The notes under the pieces: generated by a model | The model's input: the letters and a program-made list of their open reading frames with translations, nothing else | Told to the model about the DNA's origin: nothing | The model's database searches: none | In this document: positions 1 to 26,508 of the stretch, piece by piece | How the letters are laid out: every line of letters begins with the position of its first letter | Numbering within the stretch: the stretch's first letter is position 1 | Source of the DNA: a virus | Direction: 5' to 3' (one strand) | Length of the DNA: 29,694 nucleotides | Virus record (IMG/VR): IMGVR_UViG_3300034954_001305 | Location: 1 to 29,694 of that record | Translations under genes and position numbers: made by a program

Positions 1-3000
1 CTAAAACCATCATTTGCAGAATATATTAGAAGAAGAGTTCTAGTAACCGAAGTTATTTCGGGTGATCCAAATAAATTGGTTGGACAAATGATCAGTAACT
101 TTACTGATACTGCAACTGGTCCAGTTTCTGAAGTAGAAATTTTAACCAGAAATAAAAAAACATTTTATAAGTTACAATTATTTTCTGGATATAATGAAAA
201 AAGTTTAATTGAAGGAACTTTTAATATCACTCCCAATAGTTTAGTTTCTGACAGTGTTTCCATTGGTTCTTCAGTAATTACTGTTGATAGTACTATTGGA
301 TTTGATTCCTCTGGAACACTGACTATTGATAATACTAATATTGAGTATGAGAATAAGAGTGTTAATCAATTCTTTGGTTGTAGTGGTGTAACTAGTGCCA
401 TTGATCCAGGAGCATTAGTATATTCTAATACAGATACCATTTATGGGTATGAAGATGGTGATACAACAAAAAGAGTGGTTCTTAGAATTACTGGCGTTAT
501 GTCAGATATTGAGAATAAAGATACTTATAACTTACTATTCGAAAATGACCTAGTTTCAGTAAAAAATCTGGGTGAAAGTATTCGTAATAATAATGAAAAT
601 TATAAGCAGTTTGCATTTAATACTTGGATTTACAATACGAGAACCAGATATGAAATTGAAAGTTTTTCAAATAACACTGTAACATTATTTGAAACTCCAG
701 ATAAGTCAAGTTTAAAACTTGGTGATACTGTTGATATTCTTGATAGAAATGCAGAGAACATTGTACTTTCTAATGCAGAAGTTACTTCAATTGTTGATAA
801 TGAAGTTCAATTAAATCAAAGTCTTACCGTCGCTTCAAACAGAGATTTAAGTATTAGAAAAAGATTTGAATATGCAAATTCTACTGCAGTTCAATTAGAG
901 TCTGATAAAATTTTATCAAATGTTCAAAATACATATAATGAAAAAGATGAGAGTATGTATGTTGCATCAAACTCTCTTCCAGATTATACAATAACTAAAG
1001 AAATTTCTGAAGTTTCAGTAGATATAACCCCATCAACAAATTTAGACTCTGTCTATCAAGGATTCGTTGCTACTAGTGGTAAATATTCTATTTTATCATT
1101 TGCTAATGATGTTCCTTTCATTACTGGAGATGAAGTAATATATTCGGGTAATGATGATCCTATTGTTGGATTAGTTTTTGGTAGAACTTATTATGTTGAA
1201 GTTATAAGAGATACCAACCCTGTTAGAACGAATAGAATTAGACTATTTAATGCAAGATCTTTTATTGGAACCGATCAAAGAGTAGAATTCCATAAGACAT
1301 CTTTTAATGTTAATACTACACATTCTTTTACTCTTAGTGAACACTATGGTAAAAATTTAAAGGCAAAAACGTCTTTAGTAAAAATACCATTAGTACCAAA
1401 CATTGAATCGGGAATAGACACTCCAACAAAACCAGGAACTGTTGGTGTAATGATCAATGGTGTTGAAATACAAAACTATAAATCAGATGATAGAGTTTAC
1501 TATGGACCTCTTGATAATATTAAAGTTTTAAATGGTGGAACAGATTATGATGTACTAAATCCACCTCAAGTTGCAATTTCGAATCCTAGTGTTTCTACAG
1601 GAACTACTGCCAAAGCACAAACAGTTGTTAGAGGGTCTGTTAAAGAAATTATAGTTGACCCACAAAACTTTAGTATTAATAGAGTTTTATCAACAACATT
1701 AGAAGGTGGAAACGGACAGGGTGCAGTTTTGGAATCTGTCGTTTCAAAACAATTTAGGGAAATCGATTTCAATGCATCTAGAGTTGGTGTGGCAGCAACT
1801 GGTGGTATCGATATTACAAATGATACATTAACCTTTGAGGAAAGACATAATCTTGTTGCTGGTCAAAAAATTGTTTACAGTTCAAATGGTAATCCAACAC
1901 TTGGTATTGGATCATTTGATGGTTCTAATCTAGACCAAAATGAAAACTTAGTTAATGGTGGTATCTATTACCCACAAATCATTAATACACGTTCAGTATA
2001 TCTCTATAGAAGTCTCGATGATTTTAATGCAGGTATTAACACCGTTGGTTTTACTACTGTTAATACTGGTGGTATTCATAAGTTTAGAACCTATGATCAA
2101 CAAAATGTTGTTTCTGAAATTAAAGTACTTAATCCTGGTTCGGGATATGAGAATAGAAAATTAAGAGTTGAACCTACAGGAATTTCAACTATTACAAATG
2201 TTGTTAAGTTTAATAATCATGGATTTAATGATGGTGATTTAATCAATTATACATTCCAAACTTCTGCAGTTTCTGGTCTTTCTAGTTCTACACAATATAG
2301 AATTCTAAAATTAAATGATTCTGAGTTCCAAGTAGCAGAAGCAGTTGGTGGGGCTAGAACAGATTTTGATAGAAAAAATTATGTAAGTTTTGGATCTACT
2401 TCTGGAGAAGGATATCAAATATTTTCATATCCACCAATTGTAGTAAATGTTAATGCCGAATATGCTCCAGGTAGTAGTGGTGCTGCAAGCACAATTGTAG
2501 CAACTCCGTTAGTAAGAGGTGAAATTGTAGATGTTTATGTTTATGATGAGGGAACTGATTATGGATCAAATATATTGAATTTCCATAGAAATCCAACAAC
2601 TACAGTTAAAACTGGATTAGGTGCTCAATTAAAACCAATTATAAAGAGAGGTAAAGTAATAGCAGTTGAAGTTCAAAATGGTGGTAAATTTTATGATGCG
2701 GCACCAGATTTAGAAGTTGTTGGTGATGGTGTTGGTGCAAGACTTAGAGCAGTTGTTTCTAATGGACGTCTTGTAAATGTTATTATCATTAATTCTGGAA
2801 CTGGATACTCAGAAATAAACACTTCAGTTAAAGCAAAACCACCTGGAAGAAATGTTGTATTAGAATCTAACGTAAGATATTTAAATGTTAATAATTTAGA
2901 AAGATTCTCCGATGAATTATTAGTATCTTATGATGATGATCTTTCATATGGTGTTGTTGGTTATTCTACTGATAGAGATGGAGTATCTTTTGTTGATGCT

Positions 3001-6000
3001 ACAAGTGAAGAAGATCACTCAAAAGTAATTGGATGGGCAAATGATGGTAATCCAATTTATGGTCCTTATGGATTTTCTAATCCAGATGATAGTAGTTCAG
3101 CAACTAGACGTTTGCAGGTAGGATATACCAAGTCAGAAAATAACATTAAAAATAGACCTTCATTAGATACGTTTAATCTTGGATATTTTGTTGAAGATTA
3201 TAAGTTTGATGATAGTGGCGATTTAGATATTCATAATGGAAGATACACCAAAACACCAGAATTTCCTAATGGCGTATACGCATATTTTGTTGGTGTTTCT
3301 ACTAACGCATCTACTGGTAAATTAGATCCAGAATTCCCATATTTTATTGGTGATACTTACAGATCTAAAGTTGCAACTTTAACCTTAGATCAAAATTTTG
3401 ATTTTAATAAATCATCACTGGTAAGAAATACTTTTCCATACAGAACAGCGAAAAAATATTCTGGTAGTGATTTCTTATTTGAATCAAATTCACCAATTAA
3501 TCAAATAACCAAAATTGAATCTGTATCTAAAGGTTCTATTGATGGTTTTGTAATCGTAAATCCTGGGGAAGATTATAAGGTTGGAAACTCATTAATTTAT
3601 AACAATGACAATACCGAAGGTGGCGGTGCAGAATCTGAAGTATCAAGAATTAAAGGTAAAGAAATTAATTCAATAGTTACTGAATATTTGGAATATGACA
3701 GTTCTATTGTAGTTAGAGAAGATTCGGAAAATCTTCGTGTACATACTTCATCAATACATCAATTATTTGATGGTGATACAATTCAAATTTCAGGTCTCTC
3801 CACTCATGTTAATAATTTAACCGGAGCACATTCAATTGGAATCACATCAGTATTTTCTCGTTTGAGTGATACTGTTATCCAGAATACTGGAGTAACAACA
3901 GATATTTACGTCACAGAAATTCCATCCATCGTAAGTTCTGGATCATCAATTGGAATTGGAACAGAGACATTACGTGTTCTCAATGTTTTCAATGAAAACA
4001 ATATTTTGAGAGTAAGAAGAGGACTAGTTGGTTTATCACACACTTTCTCAGATATTGTTGAATTTAAAAATGATTCATTTACAATTCCTGTAAAAACCGA
4101 TTCTCTTGATTCTAAGAAAAATACAAAAGTTTATTTCAATCCTTTCGAATCTTTTGGAGTTGGAATTCAAACTGGAGTGGAAGTTCCTCTTAACTATCAT
4201 TTGGGAATAGAACCAAAAACAATATCAGTTCCATCACAGTCTATATTTGTACCAAATCACCCATTTAAAAATAATCAAGCTATTGAATTGAGAATTCCTG
4301 GTGGATTTAATGCACTACCAGTTAGAACAAATGCAAATGATACTGGTTTTAATATACCTGAAAATGGAACAAATCAAACATTTTATGTTATTAACAAGGG
4401 AAAAGATTTTATTGGACTGACAACAGAAGTTGGATTAACAACATCAACTAATGGTTTATTTCTTGTTTCAACAGATGCAAATACTCATAATAGTTTCGAA
4501 TATTATTTTGAAACTCAGTTTAATGAAATAACTGCAGATGTTCAAAAAATAAAAACAAAGGTTTCAATATCAACAGTTCATGGATTATCGAGTGGTGATA
4601 TTGTAGATCTCACAGTAAAACCAAATATCTCTGTTGGTATGGGAACAGATGATCCAATATCAATTAGATATGATTCTTCATATAATAAAATTTTAATAAA
4701 TCCTGTTGGATTTTCATCATCTCAAGTCAATATTTCTAATGATTCTATTCAAATTAATTCTCATGGATTAAAAACTGGTGAAAAAATATTCTATAGTTCT
4801 ACTGATGATAACGCATCTGGATTAACAACTGCTGGTTACTTTGTTTTACGTATAGATGATAATAACTTTAAATTATCCCAAACATATAATGATACAGTAT
4901 CAGATCCACCAATAGTAGTAAGTATTGCCAGCACTGGTGGAGCATCTCAAGAAATTAGTTTACTTAATCCACAAATCAAAGTATCAAAAAATAATGATAT
5001 TGTTTTTAATGTATCGGATACTTCTTTAGATGAATATCAGTTTAAGTTTTTCTATGACAAAGGTCTAAATAACGAATTCGTATCTACGGGAACAACGTCA
5101 ACATTCTCTGTTGTAGAAACAATTCTAACTTCGGGTATTTCAACATCATATAAGATTACATATAATGATGATCTTCCAACAAAATTATACTACTCATTCC
5201 AAAAAAATGGTGTAACAATTGATCCTGATACAGATGTAGTTAATCATTCAGAAATTGTTTATGTTGATAGTGACTATAATGGATCATATAAGATATTTGG
5301 CATAGGAGCAACTACATTCCACATTTCACCAAATTCTGTACCAGAGAGACTTGATTATACTAAATCACAAACTGATGTATTAGAATATACAACAAATTCT
5401 TTATCAGCTTCTGGTCCTATCTCTAAGATTGATATTGTTTCTCCTGGATTCAATTATTCTAGATTACCATTCATTGCAGGTTTCTCGACTGGAACATCTA
5501 CAAATGTTGGTTCTAATGCAATTATCAGACCTACAACAACATCGATTGGTAAGATAAACAATTTTAGAATCGTGAATGAAGGATTTGAATATGCATCAGA
5601 TAAAACTCTTAGACCAGAAGCAAATATTTCAAAATTATTAACATTAACAGGAACCGATCAAATTGATTCTGTTACTATTTTGGATGGAGGTAGATTTTAT
5701 CTTTCTCCACCACAGTTAGTTGTGGTGAATATGTATAATAGAGAGATTGTTGATCCATCTACCTATAGTTTAAATGCAGAATTTGTAGGGAATACAATTG
5801 TATCTGTTGAAGTTGTTTCACAACCAAAAGGACTGCAATCTGTGCAGCATAATATTTTTGCTGTTAATAATAGTAATGGTATACAAGTAGAAAGAATTAC
5901 AGGTTATTCTAATGGTGTCGTAACTTTAGAATTGAGTACACCACCAATTGATGGGTTCTCAACTCCACCATTTGCTGTGGGAGATAAGATTTTTGTTGAG

Positions 6001-9000
6001 GGTTTACAAAAAGAATCTCAAACAGACAGTCTTGGTAACGTAACTTCTTCTGGTAGTGGATTTAATTCTGCAGATAATGGATATAATTATTTTACAGTTA
6101 CTGAGTTTACTAATTCAAATCCAGCAGTATTAAGCTATGATATTGGTGAATTTACGGATGATGCTGGAGTTCGTAAAATAATTCAAACAGGATTTACTGC
6201 AGTAGTTAAAAAAGACAATTTACCATCATTTAAATTAAACACATCATCTGGACGTTTCTTCTTAGGAGAAAAACTGGCAGTAAAAAATAGTGAAGTTGAT
6301 TTAACAACAACTGTTGTTGAGAAAAATTTAGTAAAAGTTGATGGTGATTATGATATTAAAATCAATGATGTTATTGAAGGTGTTATATCTGGAATAAAAG
6401 GAACTGTAGAATCTATAACTTCTTACAGTGGAAGATTCTCAGTAGATTATTCCAGTAAAAAGAGATATGGTTGGAAAGATGATATTGGTAAATTAAATGA
6501 TAGTTTACAAGTACTACCAAATAATGATTACTTCCAGAATTTATCATATACTCTAAAGAGTACCAAAGAATTTAATACAATTCAGGAAAACGTTAGCAGA
6601 CATGTTCATCCAACTGGAATGAAGAACTTTGCTGATATGCAAATTGAATCCGTTGCAAATATTGGAATTGGAATTTCTGACTCTTTTATATCACCTACTT
6701 TAGATTTTATTGCTGAAAGAAGAGTTGATACAATTAATGCTTTTGATTTGGTTCAAGATTATGAAGCAACTAATAACAGCTCTAGATTCCTAATATTTAA
6801 GAATAAGAGACTTGCTGATTTTATTGAATGTAGAACCAATCGTGTTCTTCAAATAGATGATATTAGTAATAGATTCTCAAGTGCAGAATCTAATAGAGAT
6901 CCATTCATTGAAACAATAGAATATCCAATTACAGATTTCTATTCAAAATTCTTAATTCAAGTAACAGATGAACTAAAACAAAGTACTCAAGTTAGTGAAG
7001 TTGTTGTTTTAAATGACTACAACAACACATATACACTTAATAAAGTAGATTTATTTACCGATGAAAAACTTGGTGATTTTAATGCAGATTTTGCAGCAAG
7101 TGGTGATCCAACTTTAAGATTTGATCCAGTTAATCCAAATGACTTCAGTTATAATTTAAAAGTTTATAGAGAATCATTTACACCAGCAAATGTTGGTTCT
7201 GGATTTACTGATGTAGGATTTGTAAGAATTGATGCTAGAACCAATGCTTTGGGACCTGCAAATGGTGGAGGACTTGTAGGATTTACTACAGATGTTTTTG
7301 AAGCATTATCTAATCAATTTGATACCACATATACATTTGCTCAGGTATTAAATACCGACACAAATGAAATGAACTATTTTGAAGTCGTTGGTCATTATGA
7401 TGGTTCAAACACTCATATATCAGAATACTACTACGATACTGCAAATTTACAATCATTCTCTGGTCAAAACATTGGTACTTTTGGATTAAATGTTTCTGGT
7501 GGTGTTATAAGATTAACCTTTGAAAATGATGTAAATAGCAATCTTGTTGTAAAAACTAAAACTGTAGGTATTGGAACTACTGCTGCTGGAATAGGAACAT
7601 ATCGTTATCTTGTAGCTGGTCAAATTCCAGGTACGGAAAGAACTGCTAAGTTTGATTCACAATTTAAAATTACTAGTGGAATATCAACAGTATTTGAATT
7701 TGATAGCGTTGTTCAGTTTAGCCAAAAATCAATTATCAAAGTTGGTGTAGGTGAAACTGTTTCAGTTCATAATTTGATGGTAGTTGCTGATCAGACTAGA
7801 AGCAACATTCAACAATCCCCATTTGTAAATGTTGGAACAAATAATGGAATAGGAACATTCTCATCTGAAATGGATGGTACGAATGTTATTGTTAAATTCC
7901 ACCCAGATGCTGAATTTGCATCTGATAGTATAACAATACAGTCTTATAATCAACATATTTACGCAGATGTTGATGAATTTAACATTCCAAGTGACTTTAA
8001 TATTGGTACATTAGATGAAGGCATAACAAATGCCTTCTATGGATCGATTAATGTATTTGGTAGAGATAAGACTGATTTTGATCTGAATTATAAGAGAATT
8101 CCTATTTTTGAAAAGACTTTCAACCCAGCAAGTACAAATACATTAAACAGGTCTACAGGTGTATTCACAATTAATGACCATTTCTTTGAAACAGGTGAAG
8201 AGTTAATCTACACCCCAACATCAACATTAATTGGAGTTGCAGCATCAGCAGTTGGAATCGGAACTACAATTACAAGTGGAACTATTGTAACTGGCGACAT
8301 TGTTGAAGTTGGTTTCTCAACAATTACTGGTATTGGTGCATCAACAGGTTTGAGTATTGGAAGTTTAGTTTTTGGTGATGGTGTCCCAACAAATACGACA
8401 ATAACAGGAATTCAAACATTTAATAGTTACTTTAGTGGAGATGTTGTTGGAGCAGGTTCATCAGTAATTACTGGAATCGCCAATACCTCAATACTTACAG
8501 TTGGTGCTGGAATATTCTCTGGTGATAATACATCATTAGGTACTATCTTTGCTATTGGAATTAATTCTATAACAGCAGATCAAGTTATAGATGGTGGTGA
8601 TGATAGAACATATTTCGCTGATAACTCTAATTGGTCAGTAACTCTATCTAATGTATCGACCGCTTCAACAACTAGAGAGGTCTTTACTACTGGTATTACA
8701 ACTGATATCATGCCCGAAAGAGTGTATGCAATTAGATTAACAAAAGATACTTTCAAATTAACTGGAACTGCTGGTGGTAGTGGAATTGGATTTACATTTA
8801 CAGATATTGGATCTGGTAACCTCCATAAGTTGGAGATGAAGAAAAAACTTTCCAAATCATTAATTACAATTGATGGTGTAACACAATATCCATTGGCATA
8901 TACTCCATTATCGTTTGATTTGGAAAATAACGGAGGAACAACTATTGGTGCCGCTGTTTCTTTCTTATCACTTTCTGGTATTTCTTCAATCAGACCAAGA

Positions 9001-12000
9001 GATATTCTCAAAATAGATGAAGAGTTCTTAGAAATTCAAAATGTAGGTTTAGGAACGACAAATACTGGACCAATTACTGGAGTAGGAACTTTCCCTGTAA
9101 TTAATGTATCTAGAGGATTTGTTGGAACTGCTGCAACAGATCATCAAGATGGATCCGAAGCAAGAATTTATAAAGGTGCATTTAATATTGTTGGTAATAA
9201 AATCCACTTCACTCAGGCACCTGATGGTAAGGGAAACAATGATAGAGTTGATGCAAGTGCGCTATCTCTTCCAAAATCAACCTTTAATGGTAGAGTTTAC
9301 TTAAGAAGAGATTACACTGGAAACAAAGTTTATGATGATATTTCCCTGAGTTTTAACGGAATTGGAAGAACTTTTAGTGTATATAACGAGGGTGAAAATA
9401 CTTTAGGATTAGAAGCGGGAAGTAATTTAGTATTCATTAACGATATTTTCCAAACTCCAGATACTGCCAATAACACTGGTAATAACTATTCATTCTCTGC
9501 AGATGAAAATACTGGTATTTCCAGTGTTACATTCACTGGAATCACCAGATCAGGATCTAGCGATATTATCATCTCTGAAGAAGATGTTAACCAGAATCAA
9601 ATTCCAAGAGGTGGTGTTGTAATCTCTGTTGCAGCTACTGGTGGACTCGGATATGCATTACCTGTTGGTGCTAAAGTAAAACCAACCATCGGTGCTGGAA
9701 AATCAATTTCTGGTTTACTTGGTGTTTCTACATTCAGTTCTTCTCAAATTAATATCAGCACTTCTCGTTATAATGAAACGACAGGTATTCTTGAAATTAC
9801 AACATCTACACCACATAATCTCTGTGGATCTGGTGAATTTGTATATTTAAATGATTTAGAGTTCTCTTGTGCTGCACCACATGCTGGTGTAACTACAACA
9901 ATTTTCCCAGATGGAACTCAAGGATTTGAATATCCAGTTACTGGTATCACCTCGATTAAGACCTTTGAAGTTAATGTTGGAACAAGCACAATTCCGCATA
10001 CATATGAATCTGGTGGAACTGTCCGTCAATACTTCCCACAATTAACCTTTGGTTCTGGATATCGTGGATCTGTTGGTGTTGCAATCACTGATCTTGCATA
10101 CGCACACAGATTCGTTGAATCTCAAACAGACTCAATTGCTGATGATACTGCTGGTGTATTTACAGCAACTAATGCAGTTTATACCCCATCCAACGGTACT
10201 TTAGTGCTTACTATAGGTAATCATACATTAACAACTGATAATGTAATTACTATTGCTGGAAATTCGTTAACATTTACATGCACAAAAGATAGTAATGGAT
10301 CTAATCATTCATATCCACGCACAACAGATCCAGCATTTGGTGCTACTTTAGATATTACTGCAACAACTTCAAATACAATTACCGTTAATGTTGGTGCATC
10401 TGGTCCTAACGATCAATATGCACACACATTTGTTAGTGCCGTTGCTAATTCTATTGTTGCTGGTAATGCCAAAACACCAACAAATGCCAAATATACATCA
10501 CATTCTGGTGTTCTTGTATTGACAATTCCAAATCATGGATTGACAGTTAATGATGAAGTTCAGATTGCCAAAGAGTCGCTTATATTTAAGTGCTCTAAGG
10601 ATAATTATAAAACTGATCATCCATATCCAAGATCATCTGATCCTGTTGTTGGTATTCATACCGCAATTACTGCAGTTACTACAGATACAATTACAGTCAA
10701 TATTGGTCCTGGTGGTGGTGCAGGAACTGGAGCAAATATTACAGCAACTGTAGGTGCTGGTGGAACATTAGCATTTAACATTGTTAGTGGTGGTAGTGGA
10801 TATGTTAATCCTATGGTATCGGTTGACAGTCCCGTATATGAAAATTTACCTGTAATTGGCGTTTCTAGATTAGGACTTGGTGCTACGACAGCAACTGGTA
10901 TTGGTTTATCAATGACTCTTGAAATGGGTCCATCATCTGTTGGAATTGGAACATCATACTTTGAAGTTGCAAGATATGAAATTACAAATTCTGGTTATGC
11001 ATATAGAAAAGGTGATGTGTTCAAACCTGTTGGTCTTGTTACTGCCGCTGGTTTATCACAACCAATTGAAGAGTTGTTCTTCACCGTTGAAGAAGTGTTT
11101 AATGATTCATTTGGATCTTGGCAATTGGGTGAATTTGATTATATTGATAGTAATGCATCTAGACAAGATGGCATAAGAACTAGATTCCCACTATTCAGAA
11201 ATAGTCAATTACTTAGTTTTGAAAAGAATAATGCAGATGTAACATCATCTTTAATCGACTTTGATTCAGTGTTACTAATCTATGTTAATGGTGTTATGCA
11301 AGAACCTGGTGTATCATATACATTTGAAGGTGGAACAACATTCTCCTTTACTGAAGCACCAAAAGCATCAGACAAGGTTGATGTGTTCTTCTATAGAGGA
11401 ACTCGTAACTCTGATAGTGTTGAGGTTAATATTAATGAAACTATTAAGCCAGGTGATGAAGTTAGAGTTTATAAAAACGATGCTCTAACGAATACAGTAA
11501 CTCAAGATAGTAGAATTGTTGCTGATATTACTTCTGCAGATACAATTGAAACTGGAATTTATCTTGGTGATGGTATAAATGAGACCGATCACAAACCATT
11601 ATCTTGGTCTAAACAAAAACGTGATTTATTAATCGGAAGTATAGAACAAACTAAATCTAGAGATTCAATTGAGGGAATGGTATTCCCAACTGCTAAAGTC
11701 ATAAAAGATTTTGGTTCTAGTGATACTCAAATATTCTTAGATGATGCACAATTCTTTAATTATGAAGAAAATGAATCTACAATTGATATTGGAAGTGTAT
11801 CAGGTCTCTTAGTAAGTGGTAAACCATCACCTGTAGGTGCTTCCGTAACAGCAGTTGTATCTACTGGTGGTACAATCACATCTATTGATGTAATTGATGG
11901 TGGTAGTGGTTATACGGCAGGATCAACTGTTGCTATTAACATAGCATCACCAATTGGTGGAATTGGAACAGTATTTAAAACACAAGTTGCAGATAAAGTT

Positions 12001-12897: not shown

Positions 12898-12903
12898 TTA
12901 ACT

Positions 12904-12911
12904 TATAAATA
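12904..12911 (+). promoter_or_regulatory. T4-type late promoter octamer TATAAATA upstream of gp8
   Basis: An exact TATAAATA lies in the 32-base gap between the giant gene and gp8, ending 18 bases before the gp8 ATG. This is the consensus -10 element recognised by the phage late sigma factor (gp55) in T4-like phages, which need no -35 element. Transcription would start near 12917-12918, leaving a leader of only about 12 bases. No clear Shine-Dalgarno sequence is visible in that leader (AAAAAAGCTGATAAT). Confidence 0.75.
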
Positions 12912-12929
12912 TAGAAAAAAGCTGATAAT

Positions 12930-14486: not shown

Positions 14487-14488
14487 AA

Positions 14489-17400: not shown

Positions 17401-20400
17401 TAATTGTTATAAAGTTCCTGCAAGTGATGTTGGAGATGTATTCAGTGTTAATAGTTATGATGATGAAAGATACACATCAGATATTCCACTGATTGGTCCT
17501 AATGTAAGATCAACGGATACTTTGGACTTTAGACCAAGAGTTGCAGAATTTACATCAACAACATCATCTCCATTCCGTTTTAGTGGAAGAGATTTTGGTT
17601 CTAACACATCTAGCCCAACTCTAGTTGTTTCTCCAAATGAAACATCAATTCTTGGATATTCATACTATCTACCAAGAATTGATAAGGTTGTTATAACCAA
17701 AAATGGTCAAATTAATTTAATTAAAGGTGTTTCTTCAACAAATCCAATTGAACCATCTTCAATAGATGATTCAATGGACTTGGCAACCATAGAACTCCCA
17801 GCATATCTCTATAATCCAGATGATGCAAAAGTATCTCTGGTCAATAATAGAAGATATACAATGCAAGATATTAGAGATATCGAGCAAAGATTGGAAAATG
17901 TTGAAGAACTAACATCACTTACTTTATTGGAACTTGATACAAAATCATTGCAAATTCAAGATGCTGATGGTTTGAGTAGATTTAAGTCTGGATTCTTTGT
18001 TGATAGTTTTAATAACACCAATTTTATTAATGTTGATAGTTCTGATGCAAATTCAACAGTTGATACTAAAAAATCAGAATTAAGATCAGATTTAACTTTC
18101 AACTCATTAAAATCACAAATTGTTCCTGCCGCAACTGAGAATATTGATTCTTTAGATTTCTCTTCTAATTTCACATTACTAGATCCAAATGTTAGAAAGA
18201 CTGGAGATTTAGTAACTTTAAATTATTCTTCGGTATTGTGGAGTGATATACAACAAACTTTTGCAACTAAATCGCAAGAGATTAATCCATTTGGTGTTGA
18301 AAACTATAATGGAAATGTAAAACTAATTCCATCGGCAGACACATGGGCAAAAACATTAAACCCATCTGCTGGTGTTATTACAAGATCTCAAAGTAATTGG
18401 AATAATACTTATATTTCAAATCTTATAACCAGTTCTAATTTCAATAGGAGATTCAGATCTAGAAATATTGGATTTGAAGCATCTGCACTACAACCATCAA
18501 CAAATCACTTCTCTTTCTTTGGTGGAAGTTCTAATATTGACACAATTCCAAAACTTCTTCAAGTTACTATGACAAGTGGATCTTTCCAAGCAGGAGAGAC
18601 TGTGTATGCGTATGAGGATGGTACAAAGGTTGCTGCATTTAGATTGGCAAATGCAAATCATAAGTATGGTGGTTATTTAAATCCATCTGAGGTATTTACA
18701 AAAAATCCATACGCACCAACATTAGATATTGCAACGGTATATTCATCATCTTCGCCATTAATTAATATTGATATTCATTCTTTAGCAGATAGTTCAATTG
18801 GTAGATTTTATGGATATGTTTCTGAAGGCATGACTCTTGTTGGGGAAACCAGTTCTGGTCAAGCAACAGTTTCATCCCAGTCTCTTACAACTGATATTGT
18901 TGGTGATTTAATTGGATGTATGTTTATAAGAAATCCACTTTCAAATCCAGCACCATCAGTATCTTTCAGAACTAGAGAAACTACATTTAGATTATCAACT
19001 AGTAGCACTAATTCTAACGCTTCTGATGTTAAATTTACACAAGCAACTTTTGGTGCTAATGGAGTAATGAATTCGGATGTTTATCGTGAAAGTATTGTTG
19101 TTAGAAAATCACCAGCGGCATTACCATTAAATGCTCTCAGAAGAGATCCATTATCACAAACATTTAGATCCGATAATACTGGAGGATTTTTAACAAAAGT
19201 TGATTTATACTTTAGATCAAAAGATTCTACTGAAAAGGTATTTTTAGAAATCAGAGAAACTGACATTGGCGGAACACCAAAAGATAAATTAGTACAAGAC
19301 TTTGCGCGTGTTTCCATACTTCCAAGCGACATAACCACTTCTACAGATGGATCTACTGCAACAGAAATTACTTTACCATCCCCACTTTATCTACAACCAA
19401 ATAAACAGTACTCATTAACTTTATCTTGTCCAACATCTGAAGATTATGAAGTTTGGGTTGGTGAAACTAATCAACCAACCATTGAAACTCAAAATTATCC
19501 AAATGCTGATCAGGTTGTATATTCAAATCAATATACTGGTGGAAACTTATTTAAGCCACAAAATGGATCAGTTTGGGCACCAACTATTTCCGAAGATTTA
19601 AAATTCCGTTTATATAAGGCAGAATTTGTTTCAACAGTTGGTATTGCATATTTTAATAATCCATCAATTTCTATTGGTAGTACATTTGCATCAATAGATG
19701 CAAACCTTGAAACTTTGACTAATAATCCAATCAAAACCTTACCCAGAAAGTTAACGGTTGGTATGTCAACTTCATATGCATTGGACGATATCCTAACCAT
19801 AGGTGTTCAAGTTGCCGAGGGTTCTAACACTGGATTCATCGAATCTGTTGGTGGAAATATTAACACTATTGGTATTAACACTACTGGTATAGGTTATTCA
19901 AATGGAACTTATAATAACGTTCCACTATATACAATAAATGGTAATGGATCTGGTGCAACAGCAAATATTACCGTCACAAATAATGGTGTTTCTAATGTTG
20001 CTTTAGCGGCAACAGGAAATGGATATAGAGTAGGTGATTTGGTTGGAGTTACTACAGCATCTGCTGGAGGAGTAGGTGAACGTGCAGAGATTGAAATTAC
20101 GGCAGTTCCAAATATTGATACACTTTATTTGACTAATGTTAAAGGTGAAACTTTTGGAACAAGTCAAGATCTTTCATACTATAGTGGAAGTACTCTAGTT
20201 GCTATGGCAGGAACTGAAGTTAGAGGAACCCCAACAGTTCCTGATGATATCTTCTCTGGAAATGTAATCCATGTTACACATTATAATCATGGAATGCAAT
20301 CTAATAATAATATTGTAAATATAAGCGGTGTTTCTCCAAATACAACGACCACCACTTTAGATGCAGCAATTATTTCAACAAATACAACTATTTCCGTTGC

Positions 20401-21526
20401 AAATACTTCAAACTTTGTTAATTTTGAAGGAACTGCAGTTAGTGGAACAAATCTAGGATATGTTCTTGTAAATGATGAGATTATTTCATACAGTCAGGTT
20501 AATGTTGGTTCTATAACCATTAATGCTCGTGGTGAAAATGAATCAACAGTTAGAAATCACGCAGTCGATGATATTATTAGAAAATATGAACTTAATGGTA
20601 TTTCTCTAACAAGAATTAACAATTCACACAATTTACCAACAGATCAATCAATTTCTTCAAGAAGAGATATTGATTCGTATCATATTCAAATTCAAAGACC
20701 AGGAACAAAAAATAGTGGTGCAAATTTACTGAATTTTGATGGTGAAGGTTCTTTTGGTGGAGATCTATGTAGAGCAACTCAAAATATTCAGTTTAATGAA
20801 GTGCTTCCATACTTTAATGTTATTAATCCAGAAGGAACAAGTGTATCATCAACATTAAGAACAGTTTCTGGAACAAGTGTTGGTGGAAATGAAAGTTCTT
20901 TCCAAGATTTAGGGTATGAAAGTGTTGCCTTGAACAGAGTTAATGAACTTTCATCACCAAGAATTGTTTGTTCTAGAGTAAATGAAACTGAAAGATTATC
21001 CACATTACCAAGAAGTAAATCCCTTACACTTGGTGTGAGAATGGAAACTACTAATAATAGTATATCACCAGTTATTGATTTGCGAGATGCAGCAACATTT
21101 GTATTTGGTAGAAATAGACTAAACAATCCTGTTTCTAATTATGAAAATGATCTCAGAATTCATTCTGTTTCTGAAGATCCACATGCTTCTGCATATCTTT
21201 CAAATACAGTTAACTTACAACAACCTGCAGAGTCGTTGAAAGTCATTCTTACTGCGTATAGAAATTCTTCTAGTGATTTTAGAGTTCTCTATAAATTAAC
21301 TAGATCCGATTCCAGTGAAATTGATCAAACATATGAGTTATTCAATACTGATGGAACATCAGATGTACGTGTGAGAGCAAGTGAAGATGGTGAATATCTT
21401 GAGTATGAATTTACTGCAGATAATCTACCACAATTTACAGGATTTGCTATTAAGATTGTAATGTCTGGAACCAATGAAGCATATTCAACTAAATTCCGTG
21501 ATCTGAGAGCAATTGCTCTGGTATAA
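14489..21526 (+). CDS. DUF4815-type virion structural protein (baseplate/tail fibre region)
   Basis: The 2345-residue product begins with a conserved block, SPYYDDFDPNDNFYRVLFKPG, SRELTSLQSILQNQV and HIFKDGSIVIPGN (residues 10-70), which is the hallmark of the DUF4815 family of phage structural proteins. Later family-like blocks are RRYTMQDIRDIEQRLENVEE (from about 1121, probable coiled coil), RSRNIGFEASALQPSTNHF (about 1323-1345), a DPLSQTF ... GGFLTKVDLYFRSKD ... IRETDIGGTP section (about 1550-1670), and a C-terminal Lys/Tyr-rich beta domain (SLKVILTAYRNSSSDFRVLYK, about 2245). Phage-wide modules are inserted at several points, including a GxGY pair (bases about 19870-20045) and a VNDEIISY...RG module (20440-20600). 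It occupies the place of T4 genes 9-12, so a baseplate-periphery or fibre role is inferred. The start is the only ATG near the gp8 stop, 2 bases away. Confidence 0.85.
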   Translation: MSQKTNLNVSPYYDDFDPNDNFYRVLFKPGFPVQSRELTSLQSILQNQVKSFGNHIFKDGSIVIPGNITYNPTYYAVKINPTHVGLSVGIYLDQLVGKKIKGQTSQITAVVQKVLKNTESETGDYTLYVKYITADANFSVSQFTDAETLIALDNVTYGNTTIPSGDTFATLLNSEATFTSSAVSISRGVYYIRGHFVDVAADTIVLDQYSNTPSYRVGLSVSETIVDAQDDNSLYDNARGFSNYAAPGADRLKISTKLSKKRITDTEDKDFIEILRVSGGVVKKIQDTNTYSEIKEYIAKRTFEESGNYAVDSFEVDVENSLNDRLGSDGVFFSNQITEQGNVPSENLLAVKVSPGKAYVGGFDVEKTSTTILDVDKPRATRTIPSASIPFEMGNKVLVNNVHGTPVLGLGNNFSVGLYRRRLDSDIAPNGQRIGDARIYSFALNDPADTFGNANKWDLYLYDIQTYTRITFGSNTSLTECPVGSHIRGLSSGATGYTTDERDSNGTIQFLTDTSGVFQAGEQVVINGGSVTRTISTTRTYGVNDIKSVYQNVNGGSTETAAGSAGLSTAFAADTILNESIVPGFSSADIITIDATAGIATVTGRNLAGKIKGGDILSYNVAGNDYPNYLRVVGITTTGTSATVASTQSVDGVAHGSLTSGNYTFKLASPSISGGDRAHLYAKLNSENISNVSFSGSNLVVDRQVSGKSTDNNGVVSIDRTDIGITSSFFEPYAFDRYAIFYSDGTAANLTADQVVVGGNSLDVTFSGLIPNQNNVFINASAKKNSITNKQKNYIRSEKKEISLTVSGVTTSVSGLTQNNNYGLRVEDHEISLNVPDVANVIAVYESLDNGSVILDKLTFSAGLNLNTSAILGEKIIGQGSGAVAQLVTKTSSTEVEFVYLNSNRFSPSETVLFEESNIRSAINSIVKGNYINKTQDYTLDKGQKEQYYDYSRIVRKRDALIPSKRLTIIYNCYKVPASDVGDVFSVNSYDDERYTSDIPLIGPNVRSTDTLDFRPRVAEFTSTTSSPFRFSGRDFGSNTSSPTLVVSPNETSILGYSYYLPRIDKVVITKNGQINLIKGVSSTNPIEPSSIDDSMDLATIELPAYLYNPDDAKVSLVNNRRYTMQDIRDIEQRLENVEELTSLTLLELDTKSLQIQDADGLSRFKSGFFVDSFNNTNFINVDSSDANSTVDTKKSELRSDLTFNSLKSQIVPAATENIDSLDFSSNFTLLDPNVRKTGDLVTLNYSSVLWSDIQQTFATKSQEINPFGVENYNGNVKLIPSADTWAKTLNPSAGVITRSQSNWNNTYISNLITSSNFNRRFRSRNIGFEASALQPSTNHFSFFGGSSNIDTIPKLLQVTMTSGSFQAGETVYAYEDGTKVAAFRLANANHKYGGYLNPSEVFTKNPYAPTLDIATVYSSSSPLINIDIHSLADSSIGRFYGYVSEGMTLVGETSSGQATVSSQSLTTDIVGDLIGCMFIRNPLSNPAPSVSFRTRETTFRLSTSSTNSNASDVKFTQATFGANGVMNSDVYRESIVVRKSPAALPLNALRRDPLSQTFRSDNTGGFLTKVDLYFRSKDSTEKVFLEIRETDIGGTPKDKLVQDFARVSILPSDITTSTDGSTATEITLPSPLYLQPNKQYSLTLSCPTSEDYEVWVGETNQPTIETQNYPNADQVVYSNQYTGGNLFKPQNGSVWAPTISEDLKFRLYKAEFVSTVGIAYFNNPSISIGSTFASIDANLETLTNNPIKTLPRKLTVGMSTSYALDDILTIGVQVAEGSNTGFIESVGGNINTIGINTTGIGYSNGTYNNVPLYTINGNGSGATANITVTNNGVSNVALAATGNGYRVGDLVGVTTASAGGVGERAEIEITAVPNIDTLYLTNVKGETFGTSQDLSYYSGSTLVAMAGTEVRGTPTVPDDIFSGNVIHVTHYNHGMQSNNNIVNISGVSPNTTTTTLDAAIISTNTTISVANTSNFVNFEGTAVSGTNLGYVLVNDEIISYSQVNVGSITINARGENESTVRNHAVDDIIRKYELNGISLTRINNSHNLPTDQSISSRRDIDSYHIQIQRPGTKNSGANLLNFDGEGSFGGDLCRATQNIQFNEVLPYFNVINPEGTSVSSTLRTVSGTSVGGNESSFQDLGYESVALNRVNELSSPRIVCSRVNETERLSTLPRSKSLTLGVRMETTNNSISPVIDLRDAATFVFGRNRLNNPVSNYENDLRIHSVSEDPHASAYLSNTVNLQQPAESLKVILTAYRNSSSDFRVLYKLTRSDSSEIDQTYELFNTDGTSDVRVRASEDGEYLEYEFTADNLPQFTGFAIKIVMSGTNEAYSTKFRDLRAIALV

Positions 21527-21529
21527 ATA
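21522..21529 (+). promoter_or_regulatory. Late promoter octamer TATAAATA overlapping a stop and a start codon
   Basis: An exact TATAAATA spans the TAA stop of the DUF4815 gene and the A of the next ATG (21529). Transcription would begin around 21535, inside the 64-residue gene. A transcript from here could therefore not use that gene's start, but would serve the 60-residue gene (21710) and those beyond. The octamer is forced partly by coding (Val-stop-ATG), so chance is possible. Confidence 0.5.
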
Positions 21530-21723
21530 TGAAGCGCGTTGAAGGTACAAATCTATTTCGTGATGATTCTGGTGCTATTGTTAATTACGACACAAAAGAA
21601 TATAATCAGTATATTAGAATGAAGAGTGAGCGTCAAAAACAAAAAGATGAAATCAGTGAATTAAAAAAAGACGTTCATGAAATCAAAAATCTACTTATGG
21701 AGTTAATCAATGCCCGATCATAA
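21529..21723 (+). CDS. Small coiled-coil protein of unknown function (64 residues)
   Basis: The 64-residue charged product begins MKRVEGTNLFRDDSGAIVNY and ends in a heptad-like helix (about residues 31-61, DEISELKKDVHEIKNLLMEL), so it probably forms a coiled coil. I recall small proteins with the same 'MKRVxGTNLxRD...GAIxN' start beside structural genes of marine T4-like phages, with no assigned function. It follows the DUF4815 gene with its ATG 2 bases after the stop and no clear Shine-Dalgarno, suggesting translational coupling. Its 3' end overlaps the next gene by 14 bases. It could be a chaperone or small tail component, but nothing in the sequence decides this. Confidence 0.75.
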   Translation: MKRVEGTNLFRDDSGAIVNYDTKEYNQYIRMKSERQKQKDEISELKKDVHEIKNLLMELINARS

Positions 21724-21892
21724 CGAAATTTCTTTGGATTCAATGGCTAAAATGTTTGAGTTTGAAAAACAAGCAAGGCAGATTGATGAATGCAATGATA
21801 TTAATGAACTAAAAAGTATGCTTAAGTCATCAATGAAGTTATTTCTGAAGCAACAGGAAGTTGTATCTAAACTCGGATTTGAAGGCGTATAA
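21710..21892 (+). CDS. Small helical protein of unknown function (60 residues)
   Basis: The 60-residue product contains MAKMFEFEKQARQID (12-26) and INELKSMLKSSMKLFLKQQE (31-50), predicted by eye to form two or three amphipathic helices. A similar 'FEFEKxxRxID ... LKxxxxxxxKLxLKQQE' pattern is something I recall in small conserved proteins next to tail genes of marine T4-like phages, with unknown role. The ATG at 21710 is preceded by a GGAG at 21699-21702 with 7 bases of spacing, the best ribosome site in this small-gene block. The start lies inside the preceding gene (14-base overlap). Confidence 0.75.
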   Translation: MPDHNEISLDSMAKMFEFEKQARQIDECNDINELKSMLKSSMKLFLKQQEVVSKLGFEGV

Positions 21893-21895
21893 ATA
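21888..21895 (+). promoter_or_regulatory. T4-type late promoter octamer TATAAATA upstream of the 76-residue gene
   Basis: An exact TATAAATA overlaps the stop of the 60-residue gene (TAA at 21890-21892) and ends 30 bases before the ATG at 21926. Expected transcription start is near 21902, giving a leader of about 24 bases. This is the most natural promoter for the run from the 76-residue gene through gp13-gp16. Confidence 0.75.
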
Positions 21896-21914
21896 TATTT
21901 TAGATCCTGAAAAT

Positions 21915-21926
21915 TACCAATTGGTA
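21915..21926 (+). repeat. Perfect 12-base palindrome over a start codon
   Basis: TACCAATTGGTA is a perfect inverted repeat whose last base is the A of the ATG of the 76-residue gene. It lies in the leader expected from the late promoter just upstream. There is no loop, so an RNA hairpin would be weak; a protein-binding site or RNA dimer contact are other possibilities. It also replaces the usual Shine-Dalgarno position, where no GGAG-like sequence is seen. Confidence 0.45.
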
Positions 21927-22156
21927 TGCCAGATATAAAAGTAAGAGTAGGTCAGCAAAATGCAATCAAGGTTGTTTCTTCAATTGCTGGAGAAACGTCG
22001 GGAACTCTTTCTGGTCTGAGTGATGTAAATGTAAGTGGTGGATTACAGAACGGAATGGTTCTTGTATATAATGCCGCTACAAATAAATTTGATGCAACAT
22101 TAGAATTAACACCAGGAACTACACAGAATTTAGATATTAATGGAGGTTCATTCTAA
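21926..22156 (+). CDS. Small virion-associated protein (76 residues), fibre-like
   Basis: The product starts MPDIKVRVGQQNAIKVVSS and contains LSDVNVSGGLQNGMVLVYNA (31-50), a pattern I associate with phage tail fibre and adhesion proteins ('LSDVxxxxxxxGxVLxYN...xxxW'). It ends LDINGGSF. The following 545-residue fibre-like protein ends TIDGGTF, so the two neighbours share a C-terminal signature. It is transcribed from its own probable late promoter, and its stop overlaps the next start as TAATG, implying coupled translation in matched amounts. A small fibre or adaptor subunit is inferred; a function is not proven. Confidence 0.75.
   Translation: MPDIKVRVGQQNAIKVVSSIAGETSGTLSGLSDVNVSGGLQNGMVLVYNAATNKFDATLELTPGTTQNLDINGGSF
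22142..22146 (+). promoter_or_regulatory. Ribosome binding site GGAGG for the 545-residue gene
   Basis: GGAGG stands 9 bases before the ATG at 22156 and lies inside the last codons of the upstream gene. The same bases encode the Gly-Gly of its C-terminal NGGSF. It is the strongest Shine-Dalgarno seen in the window. Confidence 0.8.
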
Positions 22157-23793: not shown

Positions 23794-23798
23794 AGATT

Positions 23799-24044
23799 AT
23801 GAACAGTGAAGTAGATATTAATGTGTTAGTGACTCTTTATAATAAAAAATTAGCATCACTAACAAATCAAAACGTTTTGTTGGAGGCAAAAATTCAAACA
23901 CTAACACAAGAGTTTGAAGATGAGAAAAATAAATTACTGGCTCAACTTTTAGAATTAAAAAAACCAGAACCAGTAACTATAAAATCTAAATCAAAACCTC
24001 CAACAAAAGATGATGATTATCAGAACTCAGAGGTTGAAGAATAA
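23799..24044 (+). CDS. Small coiled-coil protein (81 residues)
   Basis: The 81-residue product is a long amphipathic helix at about residues 8-52 (LYNKKLASLTNQNVLLEAKI and following) with regular Leu/Ile spacing, so a coiled coil is likely. A Lys/Pro-rich and then acidic tail (KSKSKPPTKDDDYQNSEVEE) follows. I do not recognise the family. It starts 5 bases after the fibre-like gene; a GGAGG at 23779-23783 is rather far (15 bases) and GAG at 23793-23795 rather near. Its stop overlaps the gp13 start as TAATG. By context it may be a small neck/tail component or an assembly helper. Confidence 0.7.
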   Translation: MNSEVDINVLVTLYNKKLASLTNQNVLLEAKIQTLTQEFEDEKNKLLAQLLELKKPEPVTIKSKSKPPTKDDDYQNSEVEE

Positions 24045-24886
24045 TGGCAAAACCATCAACACGTCAAGGATTAATTGATTACTGTTTAAGGCGTCTAGGT
24101 GCTCCTGTCCTAGAGATAAACGTTGATGATGATCAGATTGATGATTTAGTTGATGATGCCATTCAATACTTTAATGAGCGCCATTTTGATGGTGTGGAGA
24201 GGATGTTCCTCAAGTATGAGATACAGCAGGCAGATATTGATAGAGGAAAGGCAAGCGGAACAAACGGAGTTGGAATTGTAACTACAACAGCAACTTCTGT
24301 AGATAGTGGTTCTGGATCTTTCACATCAAGTTTTTACGAAAATTCTAATTTTATTCAAGTTCCAGATTCAGTTATTGGAATTGAAAAAGTATTTAAATTT
24401 GATACGAGCAGTATCTCTGGTGGGATGTTCAGTATCAAATACCAATTATTTTTAAACGATCTATATTACTTTAACTCCGTAGAATTGCTACAATATGCAA
24501 TGACGAAGAGTTATTTGGAAGATATTGATTTTTTATTAACTACCGATAAACAAATAAGATTCAATAAGCGTCAAGATAGAATGTATCTTGATATTGACTG
24601 GAATGCTCAAAATGCTGGAGACTTTTTAGTTATTGATTGTTATAGAGCACTCGATCCAGCATCATTTACTCAAGTATATAATGATAGTTTCGTTAAGAAA
24701 TATCTAACATCACTCATTAAACGCCAATGGGGTCAGAATCTAATTAAATTTAGAGGAGTTAAATTACCAGGTGGCATTGAATTGAACGGTAGAGAAATTT
24801 ATGAGGATGCTGAAAGAGAAATAGAACAACTCAAGCAGACAATGATGCTTGAGCATGAATTACCACCTCTCGATCTTATTGGATAA
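24044..24886 (+). CDS. gp13: Neck protein gp13 (head completion)
   Basis: gp13 and gp14 form the T4 neck that closes the filled head and receives the tail. The 280-residue product (T4 gp13 is 309) has the conserved helical start MAKPSTRQGLIDYCLRRLGA with the acidic DDDQIDDLVDDAIQYFNERH (28-47). The C-terminal block of the family runs from about 211 to 266: DSFVKKYLTSLIKRQWGQNL, FRGVKLPGGIELNGREIYED and a final charged helix. A short Thr/Ser-rich stretch at 78-95 (IVTTTATSVDSGSGSF) looks like an insertion. gp13 is followed by gp14 in the T4 order through a TAATG overlap, consistent with equal expression of partners. The AGAGG at 24029-24033 can serve as the ribosome site. Confidence 0.9.
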   Translation: MAKPSTRQGLIDYCLRRLGAPVLEINVDDDQIDDLVDDAIQYFNERHFDGVERMFLKYEIQQADIDRGKASGTNGVGIVTTTATSVDSGSGSFTSSFYENSNFIQVPDSVIGIEKVFKFDTSSISGGMFSIKYQLFLNDLYYFNSVELLQYAMTKSYLEDIDFLLTTDKQIRFNKRQDRMYLDIDWNAQNAGDFLVIDCYRALDPASFTQVYNDSFVKKYLTSLIKRQWGQNLIKFRGVKLPGGIELNGREIYEDAEREIEQLKQTMMLEHELPPLDLIG

Positions 24887-26508
24887 TGTTAAACCCCTTT
24901 TTTCTACAAGGTTCTCAGTCTGAACAAAGACTTGTTCAAGAACTAATTAATGAGCAACTTAGAATGTATGGGGTTGATGTTACCTACATTCCAAGAAAGA
25001 TAGTCAATAGAGATACTATATTAAATGAAGTTGAAACTTCCAAATTTGATGATAATTATACTATTGAGGCATATGTCAATACATATGAGGGACATTCTGG
25101 TGCTGGGGATATTTTAACTAAATTTGGTATGTCACTCAGAGATGAGTTGACAATTACGATATCAAAAGAAAGATTTGATGATTTCATCGCAATGTTTATT
25201 GAGGGAGAAAGTGATGATGAAATTATTGTTTCTAGTAGACCAAGAGAAGGTGACTTAATTTATTTTCCTCTAGGACAAAGATTATTTGAAGTTAAATTTG
25301 TAGAGCACGAAGATCCTTTCTATCAGTTAGGTAAAAACTACGTTTATCAACTCAAGTGTGAACTATTCGAATATGAAGATGAAGTTATTGATACGTCAAT
25401 TAACGAAATTGATACTCAAATTCAGGATGAAGGATATATCACAACATTGAAACTTATCGGTATTGGTGAAACAGCGAGCGTATCTGCTGTTACTAATAGT
25501 GGTTATGTAAGACAGTTATTTTTAAACAATGATGGAAGTGGTTATACATCTACACCAATTGTTCAGTTTGATGACTCACCTGTTTCTGGTGGTACTGCAA
25601 CAGCAGTTGCGATAACAACATCAGTTGCTGGTGTTCATTCAATAAAAGAAATTTTATTAACAAACGCTGGATTTGGATATACTTCTGCTCCAGAAATAAC
25701 AATTTATGGCGGTGGTGGTGTCGGTGCTGCAGCAACTGCTTTAATCGAACCTACTGAAAGAGGTGTTGTTTCTATCGCTTTAGTTGATGGTGGTTCTGGA
25801 TATCCTACAGTCCCTACAATTACAGTTGCTCATCCAAATGTTGGTGCTGTTGCAACAGCTTCTACCACTAATGGTGTTATTACATCACTCACTTTAACTA
25901 ATCCAGGAACAGGATATAGTACTGCCCCAACAGTTACATTCTCAACTCCATCTTCTGGTATAAACACAGCAACTGCAACTGCAACGATTGGTGCAGGTGG
26001 CACTGTAACTGATTTAACCATTGTTAGTGGTGGAAGCGGTTATGATGCTCCAGTAACTGTCACTATTTCTAATGAGGAGTCTAATAAAACTGGAGTACGA
26101 GCAACCGCAAGGGCAGAAGTTTCCTCTGGAAATATTCTTACTGCAGTAAGAATTATTAATCCTGGTATTGGTTATACAGCAAATCCAACAATTACCGTTG
26201 CAGATCCACCAGCAATCTCAGGAATTGGTACATTCCAGTTTAATGAAGTTATTACGGGATCTAGTTCTGGAACTACGGCAAGAGTTAAAGAGTGGATTCC
26301 CTCAACCAAAACACTCAAAATTTCATATGTTGATGGAACATTTACAAATGGTGAATTAATTGTTGGTGCAGCATCTTCTGCAACTTTTGCAGTTGACTTA
26401 TATACCAATGATGATACCTATGATAAATATACTGACAACGATTCTATTGAGACTGAGGCAGATCTCATAGTTGACTTCACAGAATCGAATCCTTTTGGTA
26501 ATTATTAA
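24886..26508 (+). CDS. gp14: Neck protein gp14 with a long repeat-filled C-terminal extension
   Basis: Residues 1 to about 175 carry the gp14 core: MLNPFFLQGSQSEQRLVQEL, the YGVDVTYIPRKIVNRDTILNE segment, GMSLRDELTITISKERF and the YFPLGQRLFEVKFVE and YQLKCELFEYEDE blocks. T4 gp14 is 256 residues; this one is 540. The excess comprises six GxGY repeats (residues 211-438, period 38-45) and then an 'ITGSSSGTTARV ... GTFTNGE' module (453-505). The same repeats occur in the giant protein, gp8 and the DUF4815 protein. The extra domain probably projects from the neck, perhaps in place of the T4 whisker collar, since no fibritin gene is seen; that role is inference. It is coupled to gp13 (upstream) and gp15 (downstream) by TAATG overlaps. 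Confidence 0.9.
   Translation: MLNPFFLQGSQSEQRLVQELINEQLRMYGVDVTYIPRKIVNRDTILNEVETSKFDDNYTIEAYVNTYEGHSGAGDILTKFGMSLRDELTITISKERFDDFIAMFIEGESDDEIIVSSRPREGDLIYFPLGQRLFEVKFVEHEDPFYQLGKNYVYQLKCELFEYEDEVIDTSINEIDTQIQDEGYITTLKLIGIGETASVSAVTNSGYVRQLFLNNDGSGYTSTPIVQFDDSPVSGGTATAVAITTSVAGVHSIKEILLTNAGFGYTSAPEITIYGGGGVGAAATALIEPTERGVVSIALVDGGSGYPTVPTITVAHPNVGAVATASTTNGVITSLTLTNPGTGYSTAPTVTFSTPSSGINTATATATIGAGGTVTDLTIVSGGSGYDAPVTVTISNEESNKTGVRATARAEVSSGNILTAVRIINPGIGYTANPTITVADPPAISGIGTFQFNEVITGSSSGTTARVKEWIPSTKTLKISYVDGTFTNGELIVGAASSATFAVDLYTNDDTYDKYTDNDSIETEADLIVDFTESNPFGNY
25516..26199 (+). repeat. Six tandem GxGY beta repeats in gp14
   Basis: Six copies of an 18-residue core occur at residues 211, 256, 297, 335, 377 and 421 of gp14, all in the pattern hydrophobic-x-hydrophobic-x-N/D/S-x-G-x-G-Y-x-x-x-P-x-[IV]-x-[VIF]. 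Examples are LFLNNDGSGYTSTPIVQF, IALVDGGSGYPTVPTITV and LTIVSGGSGYDAPVTVTI. Spacings are 45, 41, 38, 42 and 44 residues, with Ala/Thr/Gly-rich linkers between. The even spacing suggests a stacked beta structure with one rung or strand pair per repeat. Confidence 0.85.
26422..26429 (+). promoter_or_regulatory. Weak candidate late promoter (GATAAATA) inside gp14
   Basis: A one-mismatch late octamer lies 78 bases before the gp15 start and encodes Asp-Lys-Tyr within the gp14 tail. Support is only sequence resemblance; gp15 is already coupled to gp14 by a TAATG overlap. Confidence 0.2.

Follow-up and report, generated by a model that had tools for sequence, protein, structure and literature searches.

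The best-described precedents for accessory beta-domains on phage virions are the immunoglobulin-like (Ig-like) decorations, which are inserted into or appended to tail and sheath proteins off the assembly core, are common to unrelated virion proteins, and have been proposed to play an accessory role through weak carbohydrate contact (Fraser et al. 2006, as cited in PMC9230969); extra tail sheath domains have also been described (PMC9230969). The crAssphage BACON repeats form a tandem array of beta-domains in a phage protein (PMC6949934), and work on protein-fragment mosaicism has found that unrelated phage proteins of different functional classes share domains (Smug et al. 2023, PMC10684548). 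The T4 neck protein gp14 (head closure Hc2, PF11649; PDB 9mkb, 9lu4) has a C-terminal region, residues 178-256, that contacts gp15 (PMC12270204). Dpo31, the tail spike of Cobetia phage Carin1, bears a protruding, Ig-like domain, D3* (residues 434-536; PDB 8ck1, 28lx, 28mg), and only distant DALI similarity is reported for it (PMC13317679). These systems are compared here with a unit of ~40 residues, the GxGY unit, that recurs in four proteins, gp7, gp8, a DUF4815 protein and gp14, encoded by a 29,694-nt IMG/VR virus fragment (IMGVR_UViG_3300034954_001305), the whole of which is referred to as the window.

The window carries the late gene cluster of a marine T4-like cyanomyovirus. Its gene order is that of Prochlorococcus phage P-SSM2: gp7 (1-12897), gp8 (12930-14486), a DUF4815/VrlC-like protein (14489-21526), further open reading frames (ORFs), gp13, gp14 (24886-26508), gp15 and gp16. 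The giant first protein is the baseplate wedge protein gp7 (phrog_2885; the counterpart of P-SSM2 gp7), and both a PF11649 core and the order gp13-gp14-gp15 identify gp14 with T4 gp14/Hc2. The reading preferred here, with a probability of about two in three, is that the repeat forms an accessory surface domain built from pairs of units, which entered several virion proteins by old insertions, has been inherited vertically and has expanded pairwise in gp14. Each GxGY repeat would then represent the same small beta unit, with three strands and ~40 residues, and a pair of units (~83 aa) would fold as one protruding beta domain. The pairs or arrays would be old insertions into surface regions of gp7, gp8, the DUF4815 protein and gp14, passed on vertically ever since at fixed positions; the gp14 array, the only one seen to change in number, would have gained one or two pairs in separate lineages, going from four to six units in the window. 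The domain would most likely serve as an accessory decoration or spacer outside the neck and baseplate, like the Ig-like tail domains, the effect of which may be weak contact with host-surface polysaccharide, packing between neighbouring subunits, or both. Glycan binding by GxGY pairs is plausible.

An earlier note on this DNA had described the repeat by a loose pattern, with about 13 positions in the giant protein, two each in gp8 and the DUF4815 protein and six in gp14. A loose regular expression of that kind gave 41 matches against 23 by chance, i.e. near chance, so the case for the repeat rests on the whole ~40-residue unit and the literal motif was dropped as a test. The strict motif [VIL]x[VIL]x(2-3)[GN]xG[YF] was found 14 times in the window proteins (mean 1.1, maximum 5 in 200 composition shuffles) and GxGY 19 times (mean 2.8, maximum 8). 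A profile built from the copies and iterated over the loci gave 967 matches at E<0.01 across the loci and none in reversed sequences, so that the beta repeat is real even if the pattern by which it was noticed is near chance. Within the window the profile recovered 6 units in gp14, 2 in gp8, 1 in the DUF4815 protein and 11 in gp7, all on the + strand, and reversed sequences gave 0 at E<1. All the copies claimed for gp14 and gp8 were thus recovered; the other DUF4815 unit was found through alignment of orthologues and a two-unit profile. In the giant protein 11 of the positions have profile support, two of them weakly; the profile gave no match at those near 2527 and 10975, which appear degenerate. 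A profile made from gp14 only had missed the DUF4815 copies, and the broader one was used instead. All-against-all blastp within the window (E<=0.5) linked these proteins by the repeat only; the more sensitive iterated profile adds a weak module, M4 (GExIxGxxSGAxA type), common to gp14 (26221-26403) and the DUF4815 protein (17102-17266; independent E value (iE) 6.4e-6; reversed control 0). Curated models in Pfam, NCBIfam and PADLOC gave no match on the gp14 array, and neither BACON, fn3 nor any other Pfam repeat family matched the units, which differ in family from the crAssphage array that they otherwise resemble. A plasmid search gave no match, and no paper naming such a repeat was found in the literature library searched, which is weak evidence of absence.

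The gp14 array follows a core that is homologous to T4 gp14 (residues 1-174; 24886-25407; PF11649 E 2.9e-34, PDB 9mkb E 6.9e-27) and its units lie at 25465-25581 (profile iE 2.2e-12), 25594-25719 (2.8e-10), 25723-25839 (6.5e-8), 25843-25956 (1.5e-12), 25966-26073 (1.8e-7) and 26092-26211 (1e-10); M4 and a conserved C-terminal tail (DFTESNPFG; 26413-26505) come after. Alignment with gp14 of T4 and of Sinorhizobium phage phiN3 sets the array between core and tail, and by that alignment the tail is placed like the T4 region that contacts gp15. Neither T4 nor phiN3 gp14 has any units, whereas cyanophage gp14 has 2-8: two in Syn9 and S-RIM8, four in P-SSM2 and S-SKS1 and six in the window. Units 4 and 5, extra in the six-unit clade, have no counterpart in four-unit orthologues and are inserted between ancestral units 3 and 4, unit 6 of the window being orthologous to unit 4 of the shorter arrays.

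Array lengths in gp14 fall into classes of 123, 196-223, 279-292 and 372-386 aa, with a step of ~83 aa that equals two units. The even pattern was first seen in 77 proteins and four reference phages. As a test, 222 additional complete gp14 proteins were collected in three new scans that took Syn9, S-SKS1 and phiN3 as anchors; these had 0, 2, 4 or 6 units in 75, 70, 73 and 4 cases respectively, and none had an odd number. By the same criteria four units were counted in 66 proteins of the first set and six in nine, with eight and seven in a single protein each. The seven-unit call (L058) has an array length in the eight-unit class and one unit that by reading is degenerate, and a protein counted as having six units (L027) also has the eight-unit length. 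A tree of gp14 cores put the six- and eight-unit arrays at separate places, with good support for the seven-member clade of the window and strong support for the grouping of L058 with a four-unit sister, other gains being less resolved. The gp8 and DUF4815 proteins each hold exactly two units. Given the even gp14 counts and the ~83-aa steps, the units probably work in pairs, and that two units fold together is the simplest reading of the even counts. Comparison with three close relatives gave ratios of nonsynonymous to synonymous substitution rates (dN/dS) of 0.24-0.28 in the gp14 array and 0.055-0.074 in the core. The array is evolving faster than the core yet under constraint, as expected of an exposed accessory part, which is no proof of exposure.

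Other insertions were observed in gp14 of particular lineages. In Syn9-like gp14 proteins (L224:2501-4774, L227:2501-4744 and L234) an FG-GAP beta-propeller (PF14312) separates the T4-like core from the GxGY pair, with E values of 1.9e-69 and 5.3e-77 and, for L234, by reading; the propeller is a candidate for a binding domain displayed on the outside of the neck. Two lineages (L013:503-2143 and L035:3415-5043) have an extra, ISGI-like beta segment near the C terminus, after the GxGY array, and a segment resembling it is present in gp7 of the window (12001-12213). One gp14 (L211:1613-3070) appears to have a GYxxGD-type pair set inside the usual pair, with one of the usual units on either side. 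Four proteins found with the array-free phiN3 query (L413, L414, L419 and L422) have six units each and apparently represent a separate gain of the array.

Prediction of the gp14 structure, proposed in the earlier note, gave an AlphaFold2 model in which the array is confident (predicted local distance difference test (pLDDT) ~90) and has three strands per unit. The strand order in a model of gp8 is the same (strands 223-228, 237-244, 247-256, 259-270 and 275-277), so that the predictions do not give the repeats a different fold in each of these proteins, and together with the whole-unit profile the common strand order upholds the idea of a beta-module shared by otherwise unrelated virion proteins. 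In a Foldseek search of predicted viral proteins, gp14 was linked to proteins of the neck and baseplate wedge and to YHYH and P22-gp10-like ones, and gp8 had a weak link to gp14 of a cyanophage. When solved structures were searched by sequence with the gp14 array, the whole of gp14, unit profiles and the DUF4815 pair, the matches over the repeat were at chance level except for Dpo31, to which the unit profile gave a weak lead (E 0.64). The full Dpo31 sequence has two units, at 440-462 (9.0 bits) and 479-506 (16.3 bits), the best whole-sequence score in 500 shuffles being 7.8 bits. D3* thus probably contains a GxGY pair and is the only probable solved example found. It resembles the pairs of the window in that it has two units and is a beta domain inserted in a virion protein, from which it protrudes. 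It differs in that it is described as a single Ig-like domain, with the repeat unmentioned in the available part of PMC13317679, in that it belongs to a depolymerase spike and not to the neck or baseplate, and in its low sequence similarity and lack of a Foldseek link to the gp14 model. Unlike the Ig-like decorations in general, the GxGY unit has no Pfam family and is short, paired and arrayed, and membership of the window copies among them is not established.

Several observations count against the preferred reading. The even gp14 counts stem from perhaps 8-9 events, by estimate, not from ~300 independent ones, and the tree leaves some of these unresolved. Several units of the giant protein stand singly, with no partner recognised, so that pairing is unsupported there. 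The gp14 core was poorly modelled by AlphaFold2 (pLDDT <50), which puts the placement of the array on the virion outside the model. Foldseek of gp14 against the PDB matched only the T4 gp14 core, weakly, with nothing significant over the array, and Dpo31 was not among the matches listed. The weak profile search preceded the targeted test of Dpo31, which makes that match post hoc; since Foldseek provides no link to Dpo31, an Ig-like fold for the window copies is drawn from sequence and is a lead, not a result.

The unit is not confined to cyanophages. The gp14 protein matches 21 PHROG families, mostly of phage structural proteins, by way of the array, and arrays of 2-35 units are found in proteins of Chloroflexota, Verrucomicrobia, Bacteroidota and others. 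Several of the bacterial proteins have an apparent signal peptide, by reading, and four have multicopper-oxidase domains, three of these four also having fn3 above the cut-off; another array protein has C-type lectin and laminin-G domains. A lambda-like tail tube protein in a Pseudomonas genome (L181:2653-3417) has two similar GxGY units within its PF16460 match, perhaps through recent duplication, and the contractile tail sheath protein of Escherichia phage vB_EcoM_ECOO78 (L187:3563-4990) has two units at residues 149-213. The units thus lie within the tail tube domain match, inside the sheath protein and after the gp14 core, places at which they may be exposed on the virion. Over long times the GxGY unit has been shuffled between proteins of the tail tube, tail sheath, baseplate and neck and secreted proteins of bacteria. 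A secreted-looking Dehalococcoidia protein (L170:679-7017) was observed to have 35 GxGY units in 1,500 residues.

This distribution bears on the foremost rival, in which the units are rigid, rung-like spacers, extending the gp14 arm or bracing subunits of the baseplate without any binding role, copy number setting the reach and even numbers keeping the C-terminal tail in register with gp15. Such a spacer, including its version of the even numbers, is considered unlikely, if well ahead of the other alternatives. It would suit the quantised length of the gp14 array, the purifying constraint on it and its position between the T4-like core and a tail placed like the gp15-contacting region of T4 (PMC12270204). 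Copy number per gene, which the earlier note had proposed to compare between relatives, varies in gp14; its constancy across aligned orthologues for the gp8 and DUF4815 pairs would also suit a spacer. Set against these points, the unit is also present, in arrays of up to 35, in multicopper oxidases secreted by bacteria and in a protein with a lectin domain, and in tail tube and tail sheath proteins where spacing is not needed, and the gp14 site also takes FG-GAP propellers.

The earlier note had suggested a different explanation, a beta-module able to move from gene to gene within one phage, perhaps through recombination at GGTGGTAGTGGTTAT-like stretches, with the expectation that copies within a genome would be closer to each other than to those at orthologous positions. 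The positions are instead kept, the same repeats standing at the same places in distant phages for gp8, the DUF4815 protein, gp7 and gp14. The gp8 pair (13563-13667, iE 6.3e-7; 13665-13787, iE 1.6e-4) is at an identical place in 80 of 80 aligned orthologues, and the DUF4815 pair, which is of the GD type (GYxxGD; 19832-20134, by the orthologue two-unit profile, its second unit at 19946-20062 with iE 8.9e-4), is so in every orthologue that covers the region. The gp7 units align with units of gp7 proteins at 28-41% identity, including those of P-SSM2, Syn9 and P-SSM4. An adjacent pair upstream of the YHYH domain (2614-2730 and 2728-2817, iE 5.5e-5 for each) was kept in 31/31 mapped alignments, for the first unit down to 28% identity, and the units at 3514-3615 (iE 0.034), 5509-5610 (2.9e-6) and 11836-11940 (3.3e-5) in 35/37, 38/39 and 54/54 respectively. 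Orthologous positions also back the unit at 5647-5727 (0.055), a weak one at 1504-1590 (0.31) and a partial, weak one at 2104-2148 (2.5); the remaining gp7 units are at 5395-5466 (weak, 0.12), 10723-10833 (2.6e-6) and 12235-12318 (4.8e-4). Between four-unit genomes, gp14 units 1-3 had the same-numbered unit as their match in 96-97% of comparisons and unit 4 in 64%.

The identities are the opposite of those expected from spread within a genome. For 296 of 330 gp14 units the median best match in other genomes exceeded the best match within their own genome, and the window units are 26-44% identical among themselves against 72-93% to the best orthologous unit elsewhere. DNA identity between copies in different genes was 0.455, at the level expected after random synonymous recoding (0.447 +/- 0.006). 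Recent recombination-driven spread within the genome is therefore ruled out by the orthologous positions, the unit identities and the DNA identity. What can still be said for a mobile module is that the same unit is found in four otherwise unrelated proteins, that a single weak direct repeat, of 38 nt and 79% identical, joins two genes (gp7 and gp14) at the motif, and that gp14 has taken up other kinds of module in individual lineages; neighbouring extra units in some gp14 arrays are also more alike (0.53-0.58), so local duplication does occur. As an account of the repeat in four genes such a module is nonetheless very improbable. Convergence of low-complexity, beta-rich (Gly/Thr/Ser-rich) sequence with no common origin, which the short units, biased composition and near-chance loose motif might suggest, is the least credible explanation given 1074-1110 forward matches at E<1 against 0-1 in reversed sequences of identical composition, the recovery of gp14 (4.6e-13) and gp8 (9.6e-4) by a two-unit profile from DUF4815 orthologues alone, and the common strand order of the gp14 and gp8 models.

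Cyanomyovirus virions contain very large and mostly unannotated proteins, and one unit accounts for the repeats in four of them as well as in many other proteins of phages and secreted proteins of bacteria. A profile together with a two-unit boundary rule would make the GxGY parts annotatable, with Dpo31 D3* as the probable template. The domain-based part of the mosaicism study of Smug et al. (2023, PMC10684548) used ECOD domains, whereas the GxGY unit, similarly shared between functional classes, has no curated model in the libraries searched. A wider proposal can be made only tentatively: that the GxGY pair is an unrecognised, promiscuous family of surface domains, found in phage neck, baseplate, sheath, tube and spike and in secreted bacterial proteins and following a two-unit rule, and that the cyanophage gp14 arm is a variable, displayed site of host contact that gains and loses pairs or FG-GAP propellers. 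If the arm is displayed at the neck it would be a candidate host-contact site in abundant ocean viruses, with no counterpart in T4.

Some further features of the window were observed. The YHYH domain of gp7 (3001-3309; PF14240, E 1.4e-26) lies shortly downstream of the GxGY pair, and domains of this type are predicted to be tail-associated metal-dependent hydrolases (PMC7824862). Another beta module is common to the C terminus of gp15 (27249-27455) and the DUF4815 protein (20369-20569; iE 0.012, reversed control empty). The ~630 nt from the DUF4815 gene to the next ORF (21527-22155) are without an ORF of at least 80 aa, and P-SSM2 has several short genes at the matching site. A 556-aa ORF adjoining gp16 (27994-29664) carries a DUF6321 domain (E 5.1e-11) at its C-terminal end, along with stretches rich in Lys/Arg.

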